Part shown: piece by piece, positions 7,763 through 41,216 of the stretch
Numbering within the stretch: the first letter of the stretch is position 1
Layout of the letters: the number at the start of each line of letters is the position of its first letter
NCBI GenBank assembly: GCA_020053305.1
Contig: JAGVNJ010000028.1
Span: forward strand, 1 to 45,835
Direction of reading: 5' to 3'
Length of the DNA stretch: 45,835 bases
Source of the DNA: Candidatus Edwardsiibacteriota bacterium
GTDB taxonomy: Bacteria > Edwardsbacteria > AC1 > EtOH8
Translations under genes and position numbers: made by a program
Notes under the pieces: model-generated
Told to the model about the DNA's origin: nothing
What the model saw: the letters and a program-made list of their open reading frames with translations, nothing else
Database searches by the model: none

Positions 7763-9466
7763 TTAACGTATCAGTATCATCTTTTTCGCCATGTTCTTCC
7801 CTCCTGTGTTAAGTTTATAAATATACACCCCGTTGGAAACCGCCCGACCGTTATTGTCCCGGCCGTCCCAGGTTACGGACCCCTCCGACCTCACCCTGCC
7901 CTCTCCTAAGGCATTAGGAGAGGTATTATTTATGAGCGTTTTTACCAATTGCCCGGCAATGTTATAAACTGACAAATTTACCGGCCCATCAACCGGCAAC
8001 TGAAAACTTATCACTGTAGACTTGTTAAAGGGATTGGGATAATTCTGCCCCAGTCTAAACGCTGGTCGCTGTCCGCTGCCCGCTGGTCGTCCCTCCACTC
8101 CGTCCGGCCCGGTATACTTGCACAGCCAGATCATATTGCTATTATCAGCATAATAATTGCTAACCAAAAATTCATCCCTGCCACAACTATCCACATCCCC
8201 GGCAGGGGCTACCCTTGCCCCCAGTTCATCCCCCAAACCAACACCACCAGAATATCTGCCCAAAATATAAGCATCATATTCTGTTTTCATTATTGGTCGC
8301 CTAAGCCACAAGTATGCCTTCCCTTTCCCATTAAATGCGGGTGATGCTCCGGTTAATAAATCACCTAATTTATCATTGTCGGCATAGCCGGCAGAGGATG
8401 ACCAATAACCCAATGCAGTATCCTCGCCGGTTATTGTCCATAAAGGTGGTATTTCGCCTATAGTATTGCCCGGTAATAAGTAACACTTGCCTTTGCCAGA
8501 AGTTCCGGTAGTGGTAGGCCAGAACGGTGTACCGAACCAACCCAAAGTGGAAAACCCTGTTGTATCTACGGGGGTACTACTTACATTAAATGCCCCAAGC
8601 CATTGCCATGACGCTTCGCCATAAATCCAGCCCTTCGCTGTGGTATCCACAGGACTGCCGCCATAATAAATATACACTTTCCCCGCGTTAGAGCCGGCTG
8701 CACCATTCCCGTAAGCGCCTACTATCAAATCATTATAACCATCTCCATTATAATCTTCCTTGGCATCAATATTATATCCAAAAAATTCGCCAACACCAAC
8801 TTCTATATGTCCATTTATGATTATATCCGGCCAGGTGTGCAAGCCAAGCGTATCACCGTAATATATATATACCCTGCCACGTTCATAGTCCTCGCCGTAA
8901 TACGGCGCACCAACCACCAAATCGTCAATTCCATCTACGTTTATATCCCCGGCGGAAATAGAACTACCAAACCCTGTGCTTGGAATACCATTGTAACCGC
9001 CAATTACCAAATCAGGTTTTGGGTTAAGATCAACACCGGTCCCATAATGTATGTTCACGCACCCTTTTGTTTCATTTACCCCCGTGCCATAGGCATCCCC
9101 CAATGCCAAATCTCCGTAACCATCATTGTTAAAATCGGCAATGCACATTTGCTGGTGGGCGCCGGTAGTATCGTAGGTTATTACCTGGCTTGGCACGGCG
9201 CTTAATGCGGAGCCTCCCAGGAATATATATACCCGGGACTTGATCCACCCGGAAGCATCAATTACCGTATCGGTAGAACTGACAAAATCGGAATACCCAT
9301 CGCCGTTCAGATCACCTGCGGCCATTCTGTAACCCCAATAGCGGCACCCGCCGCCGGTATCAGGCGAGGCCTTCTGCCAGATAATTTGCAGATTGTAAAG
9401 GGCCTGGGCCTGGCTTAGGCTATAGGCCATAGCTATCAGGCACGAGGTTAAAAGCAATTTTCTCAC
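7763..9466 (-). CDS. Secreted FG-GAP repeat protein with C-terminal sorting domain
   Basis: This 567-residue protein has a signal peptide (to about residue 20, S-Q-A-Q-A). Integrin-alpha-type FG-GAP repeats follow, with calcium-binding D-x-N-x-D-G-x-x-D motifs (D-L-N-G-D-G-Y-S-D, D-F-N-N-D-G-Y-G-D, D-I-N-V-D-G-I-D-D, D-Y-N-G-D-G-Y-N-D), which should fold as a beta-propeller. Residues about 475-567 form a FlgD-like/type IX-like sorting domain (Y-P-N-P-F-N, V-Y-N-I-A-G-Q-L-V, G-V-Y-I-Y-K-L, ending K-M-I-L-I-R). The GTG start overlaps the stop of the K+ channel gene (GTGA). A palindromic repeat is embedded in frame inside the sorting domain (7887-7923). The protein is likely surface-exposed or secreted; its partner is unknown. 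Confidence 0.85.
   Translation of the reverse strand: MRKLLLTSCLIAMAYSLSQAQALYNLQIIWQKASPDTGGGCRYWGYRMAAGDLNGDGYSDFVSSTDTVIDASGWIKSRVYIFLGGSALSAVPSQVITYDTTGAHQQMCIADFNNDGYGDLALGDAYGTGVNETKGCVNIHYGTGVDLNPKPDLVIGGYNGIPSTGFGSSISAGDINVDGIDDLVVGAPYYGEDYERGRVYIYYGDTLGLHTWPDIIINGHIEVGVGEFFGYNIDAKEDYNGDGYNDLIVGAYGNGAAGSNAGKVYIYYGGSPVDTTAKGWIYGEASWQWLGAFNVSSTPVDTTGFSTLGWFGTPFWPTTTGTSGKGKCYLLPGNTIGEIPPLWTITGEDTALGYWSSSAGYADNDKLGDLLTGASPAFNGKGKAYLWLRRPIMKTEYDAYILGRYSGGVGLGDELGARVAPAGDVDSCGRDEFLVSNYYADNSNMIWLCKYTGPDGVEGRPAGSGQRPAFRLGQNYPNPFNKSTVISFQLPVDGPVNLSVYNIAGQLVKTLINNTSPNALGEGRVRSEGSVTWDGRDNNGRAVSNGVYIYKLNTGGKNMAKKMILIR
7887..7923. repeat. Palindromic repeat embedded in the FG-GAP coding sequence
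   Basis: This 37-base element (GACCTCACCCTGCCCTCTCC, then the mirrored GGAGAGG end) matches the intergenic copy at 41106-41142 at about 33 of 37 positions. Here it is translated in frame as part of S-P-N-A-L-G-E-G-R-V-R-S-E-G. Confidence 0.75.
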
Positions 9467-25420: not shown

Positions 25421-26902
25421 TTATCGTATTAAAATGATCTTTCCGAAAGCCGATTTGTCTCCCAGCGATATTTTGTAGAAATAGACGCCTTGCGAAACAT
25501 TTTTCCCGTCAGCATTTCTTCCGTTCCAGATAAAATTATTTTGTCCATTTGATGAAACCTTGACGGTTTTGGTTTTAACTATCTGGCCGCAGTTGTTGTA
25601 TATGGATAATTTAATATTCCCTTTAAGTATATTGGTCGTGCACTTTATATTGAACTTCCCGCCACCGGGGTTGGGCCAGCATTTGGCTGTCAATCTATCC
25701 GCCAGGATGTTATTTATACCCCCCGGCAAAGCAGCAACGCCCAAAGCATCATAATCAATGCTTCTCTGGTAAATATCCCAGCTCATGGAAGTATCTCGCA
25801 GGTCCATCCAGGCGCCGATAATGTTGTTTCCGTTGGATGACAGCACCAGGCTTTGCCGGTATCTCTCTCCGGAGGCAGTGGCGCTGCTGATCCTGACATT
25901 ATTGCCCTCCGGCTGGTTGCAGTTACTAAAGCGTTGGCAATAATTGTCCACCCAATCCCTCTCGTCGGTCCAGCCTACAACAAAACGATTATCAGCAACC
26001 GGAACCACCGTGGGGTGCCCGCCCCATATCAACGTATCCTGATTGACCACAATATTGGCGCCGATAGCCGCACCAGACGAATCACAGAACTGGGCCATAA
26101 TAGCCGCACCGCTGCTGGTGGTCCTGGCCCAGGCCATACAGTAATTGCCGGAATCGTTCACCGCAATGGCCGGTTGGGCATAGTCCAGGTTGATATTGCG
26201 CGCGTTTATCCGCAAGGAATTGCTTACAGGATTGCCTGCCGCGTCAAATCTGCGCCATAAAATATTGTCAGTTTCCGCCTGCCATGTTATGGCAAAATTG
26301 CCATCAGGCTTCATACATATCTTGGGGTCGCTCCCCGCCGAATCGCCCAGCATTATGTTGCCGCCAACCGGAGTGCCCAAAGCAGAATATCTTTGTCCGT
26401 ATATTTTCCATTGATTGCGGGAATCCATCCAAACCAGGGTAAAATTTCCCTGGCTGTCGGAGGCTATATCCGGGCAATATCTTTCGGCTATACTGTCGTC
26501 ATTTACTTTAAAGGCCGGGGCGATGGAATCCCCGTTAACATCGAACAGTTGGCCATATACATCCCAGCCGTTGGAAGAATCGCCAATCTCCATCCAAACT
26601 GTGGCGTATCCCAAACTCGCTCTTGTGCAAATTGCCGGCAGCATCCGGTATTTTGGGGAACCCAGTTTTAAATTGCCGTTTATTGGCGCTCCGGCGGTAT
26701 CCAGACCCTGCAAATACAAAAAAGAACTGTCCGCTGAGATATCTTCCTGCCACACCAAAGCCGCTCCTTGTTCTCCGGAGGCAATGGACGACCATCCCTG
26801 CCAGGTTTTACCGGTGTCGCTGTTGACCTTGATATCATTCCCGCCCCAGGCCGTCAAAGCCGAAATAGCGACAAGCGTTGAAAAACATAATAATTTCTTC
26901 AT
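25421..26902 (-). CDS. Secreted seven-repeat propeller-like protein with C-terminal sorting domain
   Basis: This 493-residue protein has a signal peptide (to about residue 20, L-T-A-W-G). About seven repeats of 45-55 residues follow, with the pattern (G/N)-(N/F)-x-x-x-x-W-x-D or W-x-E, then a (Y/W)-x-Q-(R/L)-(F/Y) strand and G-(A/T)-P-(I/V)-x-x-N (for example F-T-L-V-W-M-D-S-R and F-V-V-G-W-T-D-E-R). That count suggests a seven-bladed beta-propeller. Residues about 405-493 form the same FlgD-like sorting domain as the FG-GAP protein, ending K-I-I-L-I-R. The ATG overlaps the pilin-like gene stop (ATGA), so the two proteins are translationally coupled. The ligand is unknown. Confidence 0.8.
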   Translation of the reverse strand: MKKLLCFSTLVAISALTAWGGNDIKVNSDTGKTWQGWSSIASGEQGAALVWQEDISADSSFLYLQGLDTAGAPINGNLKLGSPKYRMLPAICTRASLGYATVWMEIGDSSNGWDVYGQLFDVNGDSIAPAFKVNDDSIAERYCPDIASDSQGNFTLVWMDSRNQWKIYGQRYSALGTPVGGNIMLGDSAGSDPKICMKPDGNFAITWQAETDNILWRRFDAAGNPVSNSLRINARNINLDYAQPAIAVNDSGNYCMAWARTTSSGAAIMAQFCDSSGAAIGANIVVNQDTLIWGGHPTVVPVADNRFVVGWTDERDWVDNYCQRFSNCNQPEGNNVRISSATASGERYRQSLVLSSNGNNIIGAWMDLRDTSMSWDIYQRSIDYDALGVAALPGGINNILADRLTAKCWPNPGGGKFNIKCTTNILKGNIKLSIYNNCGQIVKTKTVKVSSNGQNNFIWNGRNADGKNVSQGVYFYKISLGDKSAFGKIILIR

Positions 26903-41105: not shown

Positions 41106-41216
41106 GACCTCACCCCGCCCTCTCCAAAAGCATTTGGAGAGGGAAAACAACAAACCCCCTCCGCATCGGAGGGGGCCAAGGGGGCGGTCATAAGGGCGGG
41201 TTTAAAACCCGCCCCT
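41106..41216. repeat. Three palindromic repeats in series
   Basis: The units are 41106-41143 (CCTCACCCCGCCCTCTCC then GGAGAGGG, same family as the copy inside the FG-GAP gene), 41154-41176 (CCCCCTCCGCATCGGAGGGGG) and 41194-41216 (GGGCGGGTTT/AAACCCGCCC). Each is a strong hairpin. Together they fill the gap between the ASCH gene and the ppdK promoter and may also stop read-through. Confidence 0.65.

Follow-up and report, generated by a model that had tools for sequence, protein, structure and literature searches.

Copies of a dispersed palindromic repeat occupy, in frame, one and the same loop in the secretion-sorting domains of unrelated proteins of Candidatus Edwardsbacteria, and both the presence of the repeat and its variant differ between orthologues. 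One such copy lies in the window, by which the whole 45,835-nucleotide stretch of DNA analysed here is meant, within a gene for an FG-GAP protein. The original prediction had been confined to the window; the repeated use of one loop and the swapping of variants between orthologues are the more unusual part, and go beyond what had been foreseen there.

The window repeat and its dispersed family

The features of the window are collected in Table 1. The protein encoded at 7763-9466 matches Pfam FG-GAP (E 7.8e-31) and Por_Secre_tail (E 7.6e-6) and scores above the cut-off of TIGR04183, and orthologues of its gene are present in four further genomes (G001, G003, G008 and G009; the genome of the window is G000). 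TIGR04183 was matched in 30/30 aligned sorting-domain members (alignment A1). On the strength of the C-terminal TIGR04183 and Por_Secre_tail matches, the host domain is classified as a putative T9SS type A sorting domain. The contig contains only two sorting domains, and the second, in the gene at 25421, lacks the repeat, as had been predicted.

Table 1. Coordinates of the repeat, its host domain and related features in the window
Feature	Position	Strand	Basis or remark
FG-GAP protein gene, 567 residues, C-terminal type IX-like sorting domain	7763..9466	-	Pfam and TIGR04183 matches, orthologues
Sorting domain, 101 residues	7766..8068	-	68 relatives in genome, alignment A1
Loop, TL to codon before W, 23 codons (canonical 15), repeat inside	7871..7939	-	Loop count and alignment
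In-frame palindromic repeat, hairpin 7900-7923 and one arm 7887-7899; codes SPNALGEGRVRS	7887..7923	-	Sequence, BLAST
Heptamer array CAGCGGG-CAGCGGA-CAGCGAC-CAG, linker before sorting domain	8062..8085	-	Pattern search
Second sorting-domain gene of the window, without repeat	25421..26902	-	Sequence, domain search
Intergenic copy of the 37-bp repeat	41106..41142	+	Different variant, other orientation, at same site in genus-mate G002

The repeat in the gene (GACCTCACCCTGCCCTCTCCTAAGGCATTAGGAGAGG) and the intergenic copy (GACCTCACCCCGCCCTCTCCAAAAGCATTTGGAGAGG) are identical at 33/37 positions, which confirms the predicted figure from both sequences, and the RNA hairpin of the former has 10 base pairs. 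The minus strand of the gene reads ...VYNIAGQLVKTLINNTSPNALGEGRVRSEGSVTWDGRD..., a single open frame across the repeat, which codes part of the loop between VKTL and VTWDGRD; the claim of an in-frame palindromic 37-mer in the sorting-domain loop therefore stands. The repeat had also been said to add roughly 12-15 residues. Its in-frame placement in the loop holds, but it is not a pure addition: some of the usual 15-residue loop gives way to the repeat, so that the net gain is only 8 residues (23 vs 15). In the orthologues without the repeat, two paralogues in G009 that are 57-61% identical upstream, the loop is empty and ordinary (LVNDDKKAGSYEVKW), without the residues SPNALGEGRVR. Conservation of these residues in orthologues lacking the repeat had been named as the finding that would overturn the original prediction; this check was made, and the prediction withstood it.

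A second class of repeat DNA sits in or at the boundary of the same sorting domain, where the heptamer array (CAGNNNN, four units) gave 1 match vs 0.00 expected in shuffles. Other domains with the repeat have similar heptamer runs in their STVISYQ strand. An Rfam search of the window returned zero matches.

The genome of the window (2.59 Mb in 77 contigs) contains about 35-50 copies of the repeat, nearly all of them intergenic. A BLAST search with the repeat region found 49 places in this genome at E<=0.001, and the exact core CTCTCCTAANGCNTTAGGAGAG (type A) occurs 21 times there, 8-28 times in three genus-mates and 0-9 times in six other family members, against 0 matches for a reversed control of the core; the repeat at 7887-7923 is therefore not a product of chance. 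An ordinary loop whose coding DNA only looks palindromic would be the simplest alternative, and G-rich, charged loops do yield some GGGGAGGG-like DNA, such as GGGAGAGAGGGAAG in the empty C33 loop of G000. However, this reading is refuted by the exact repeats, that is, by the match to the intergenic copy and the exact cores, and is also at odds with the unrelated loops found in orthologues (vide infra), so that its probability is close to nil.

The element occurs in a one-armed (~37 bp) and a two-armed (~48-52 bp) form. Its hairpin, CC[TC]C[TC]CC-tip-GG[AG]GAGG, lies between the inverted ends GACC[TC]C and G[AG]GGTC. The tip is TAANGCNTTA in type A, TCGA in types B and D and GCATC-like in type C; types B and D have this tip in common but differ in their arms and reading frame. 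Terminal inverted repeats are present in full copies (e.g. C30:29189, C9:21387 and C24:15598). Turnover in place also affects intergenic repeats, since the site of the intergenic copy at 41106-41142 holds a different core and the opposite arm in G002 (L159).

A scan of a collection of 84,980 species for the exact type A core gave matches in Candidatus Edwardsbacteria/UBP2 records and one MAG that matches the genus-mate G002, and nowhere else. The arm motif CCTCACCC-N2-5-CCCTCTCC has a much wider range, with matches in 84/290 sampled genomes, up to 152 in one of them, and almost none for the reversed control. It reaches high copy number in many distant bacterial families (G130, 152; G146, 93; G038, 91), and we know of no name for the superfamily of this motif.

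One loop in the sorting domains of unrelated proteins

Sorting domains were collected from six genomes of the family and a few others, mainly by similarity to the window domain, and loop length was counted from TL up to the last residue ahead of W. In 89 of the 106 domains this length is 14-16 residues, in the other 17 it is 20-35, and no loop has 17-19; the sample favours repeat-bearing domains, and 106 is the number of loops found, not a rate. A palindromic repeat of the superfamily, in at least four variants, is present in 17/17 long loops. The cargo of the repeat-bearing domains is unrelated, and includes FG-GAP, GH18, metallo-beta-lactamase, beta-propeller and transglutaminase-like proteins. 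The window gene is thus not alone, and even within its own genome this loop is filled by the repeat in two more sorting domains (C7:14036-14109 and C48:53900-53943, the latter in the opposite orientation and in a decayed host gene), which makes 3/68 sorting domains in G000. Among known structures, the domain matches FlgD and PorU, in which the loop region aligns between two strands, ungapped there in the FlgD matches.

A simple codon score was used to classify 130 copies in the fetched loci, found mainly via type A; among these, every interior copy in frame belongs either to the sorting-domain loop or to cysS. A further two classified copies form C-terminal tails (the peptidase gene at C65:13872 and one gene in G006), and the other reported matches among the 130 lie just upstream of start codons. 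One 25-residue loop from another lineage (L367, G015:C144:24628) was rejected as an instance of this repeat, and contains a different imperfect palindrome (CCCATCC...GGATGGG). Separately, the sorting domain L302 (G000:C11:6489-6758) is intact except that a stop codon takes the place of the invariant W ahead of the WDGRD-type strand.

Comparison of orthologues shows that a single gene lineage can change both in loop occupancy and in repeat variant. The window gene itself (G000) has type A, and its orthologues, with an upstream identity of 57-79%, have type B in G001, type C in G003, type D in G008 and an empty loop in the two G009 paralogues. In a metallo-beta-lactamase group with an upstream identity of 88-89%, the loop is filled in G001 (C19) and empty in G000 and G003, and the DNA alignment shows a loop that is exchanged within a domain that is alike on both sides. 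The members of a GH18 group are 89% identical, with type B in G001 (C62) vs type C in G002. Finally, in an FG-GAP group, G001 C66 (L178) and G000 C33 (L049) are 89% identical upstream but differ in the whole sorting domain, with the repeat in G001 only; the two sorting domains are alike at the family level only, so that a domain has been swapped close to the end of the gene.

Orphan right halves of the sorting domain, which start at GGGTC-AATAACTTGG, were also observed in two loci (L284, G001:C75:36611 and L285, G003:C4:253780). A different palindrome (CTTTCTCTTCAAAGAGAAAG) lies next to them, an arrangement suggestive of an element at a recombination breakpoint.

The 17 filled loops are open by way of their finding, and a separate search was made for broken ones. 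One frame-broken filled loop was detected, in a GH18 gene (G003 C4:755701) in which the conserved WDGRD end continues in another frame, in addition to the decayed gene with the reversed element (G000 C48:53900). These two share a locus, with the same downstream gene, and may represent one event. The half-domain matches that were checked for missed frame-breaking insertions proved to be contig ends, ordinary loops and decayed or fused genes, with no further copies. The one-armed form of type A has one readable frame in each orientation, and type B can be read in all six. Overall, 17/18 are in frame vs one third expected (binomial 1e-7), as are 11 of 12 roughly independent states (binomial 5e-5), although descent makes both values rough.

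Probable origin and exchange of the filled loops

We regard it as probable, taking the explanation as a whole, that a dispersed element entered the loop in frame and spread by recombination, with its cores exchanged and its frame kept by selection. The 37-mer would be a copy of a non-autonomous REP/MITE-like palindromic element found mostly between genes. Such an element may have entered the loop between the VYNIAGQLVKTL and WDGRD strands, a place in which additional residues would be tolerated. The filled loop would then have passed between paralogous sorting domains of unrelated cargo proteins via recombination at the conserved flanks, carrying along a few neighbouring codons (usually V/I-T-W). 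Recombination with dispersed copies would have swapped the core for other variants, and purifying selection would keep the frame open. We infer the order of these events, gene conversion as the vehicle and the neutrality of the added residues, along with whatever enzyme first moved the elements.

The flanks of the loop bear on this question. V/I-T precedes W in 14/17 filled vs 11/89 empty loops (Fisher 2e-8, for rows that are not independent), and the repeat-bearing domains are more alike in the region adjoining the loop, with a likeness near background 50-75 bases away. Both the V/I-T-W excess and the near-loop likeness fit a transfer between paralogous domains in which the element takes its flank along. 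A tree of the domains requires 8 label changes, but a single clade of repeat-bearing domains (p-AU 0.08) is neither supported nor firmly rejected; therefore one filled lineage that spread, repeated insertion, or both are possible. Where filled and empty orthologues were compared, the loop is replaced, and no clear target-site duplication was seen. One or a few original insertions followed by recombination, with selection only keeping the frame, is in our judgement most likely.

The single-copy housekeeping gene cysS is a second host, with an in-frame element at the same linker in G000, G001, G002, G003 and G006 and with cores that differ between them; cysS of G004, G005 and G007 is without the element, and the linker in G008 (L275) and G009 (L280) contains another, unrelated repeat-like insert, GTTCCGAAGGT.AGAAGATCGGAAC. 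Core exchange is thus seen at fixed places, in cysS of five genomes and at the intergenic 41106 site as compared with G002. Since cysS has no paralogous loop donor, at least one insertion must have come about in another way.

This fixed position in cysS, the loops that are filled by unlike variants in orthologues, the opposite orientation of the C48 copy and the presence of five Y1 transposase (Y1_Tnp) genes in G000 could also speak for repeated independent transposition, in which a transposase-mobilised element lands in this loop again and again, either with the loop DNA as a preferred target or with insertions elsewhere in genes being lost. We consider such a history, in either variant, unlikely, though worth serious attention. 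The repeat is absent from the 2.0-3.3 kb loci of all five Y1 genes, inspection by eye of the right flanks of the intergenic copies showed no shared target, the shared V/I-T-W flank points to co-transfer, and chance landings repeated at one cysS position are improbable in themselves.

The concentration of the repeat in a single loop of the secretion signals of unrelated proteins, and the keeping of the frame in 17/18 otherwise readable cases, might also be taken as signs that the loop has been domesticated, with the repeat residues selected for altered sorting-signal recognition or processing and the element acting as a loop diversifier. However, the repeat is carried by just 3/68 sorting domains in G000, its peptides vary in sequence and reading frame, its occupancy turns over between close species, and the same elements are found in cysS, which is not secreted; moreover, the frame is expected to be kept even without a gain of function. 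Domestication thus appears quite improbable. We have similarly strong doubts that the elements are an exchangeable loop cassette, whereby recombination rewrites one secretion-signal loop and selection makes use of the variants.

One bacterial family here provides a free comparative system, in which many paralogous sorting domains have loops that are filled, empty or swapped. It lends itself to counting how non-coding repeats turn into protein sequence and how they are swapped, and to asking if this gain is neutral. The process may extend further, since the arm motif occurs in many other bacterial lineages (84/290 genomes).

Comparison with known palindromic elements

Accounts of coding palindromes usually centre on Rickettsia, and the REP cases from elsewhere are scattered. 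The coding palindromic elements of Wolbachia are in-frame palindromes outside Rickettsia; they belong to another lineage than the Edwardsbacteria repeat.

The RPEs of Rickettsia (Ogata et al. 2000, 2002) are palindromic repeats found in frame in unrelated genes as well as between genes, and the proteins remain plausible (PMC10969869, PMC3733652). They are described as about 150 bp long, in families across many unrelated genes, with RPE-4/6 ending in CGTC (PMC10969869, PMC3733652). The Edwardsbacteria palindromes likewise occur both intergenically and in frame within protein genes, and their hosts (FG-GAP, GH18, metallo-beta-lactamase, beta-propeller and cysS) are unrelated to each other. However, the element measures 37-52 bp, ends in GACC/GGTC and belongs to another lineage, and its interior copies concentrate in one domain loop and cysS. 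The Rickettsia likeness that had been predicted for another lineage is therefore upheld as regards the working of the element but not its identity: it works like an RPE but is not one, because length, termini and lineage differ.

GTAG/CGTC REPs are short hairpins that are mostly intergenic, and some are found within ORFs; in X. oryzae and others these ORFs include genes for tRNA synthetases (Di Nocera et al. 2013; PMC3733652). The recB genes of X. campestris and X. oryzae have different REPs at about the same site (PMC3733652). The Edwardsbacteria element is also a short, mostly intergenic hairpin with some copies in ORFs. It differs in that the GTAG or CGTC tag is absent, by inspection, from the hairpin foot, where the ends are GACC[TC]C and G[AG]GGTC, and in that the same loop is used in many non-orthologous proteins. 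Unlike the GTAG REP/RAYT system (REPtron), it shows no link to a RAYT, the five Y1_Tnp genes being without an adjoining repeat. The full form, with its terminal inverted repeats around a hairpin and its moderate copy number, also resembles MITEs and the TIRs that flank TIRYT genes (PMC3733652, PMC10969869), but no flanking transposase was found in G000, in the Y1 loci, and no clear target duplication in the filled and empty orthologues compared.

A search of the open-access literature found nothing on palindromic repeats in Edwardsbacteria, on gene conversion of sorting domains or on the arm sequence. Nor was a case found described there in which unrelated proteins have repeats in the same loop of the same domain and variants are exchanged, an absence that argues weakly for novelty. 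Intragenic REPs outside Rickettsia have already been published (PMC3733652); it is the concentration in a single loop that looks new.
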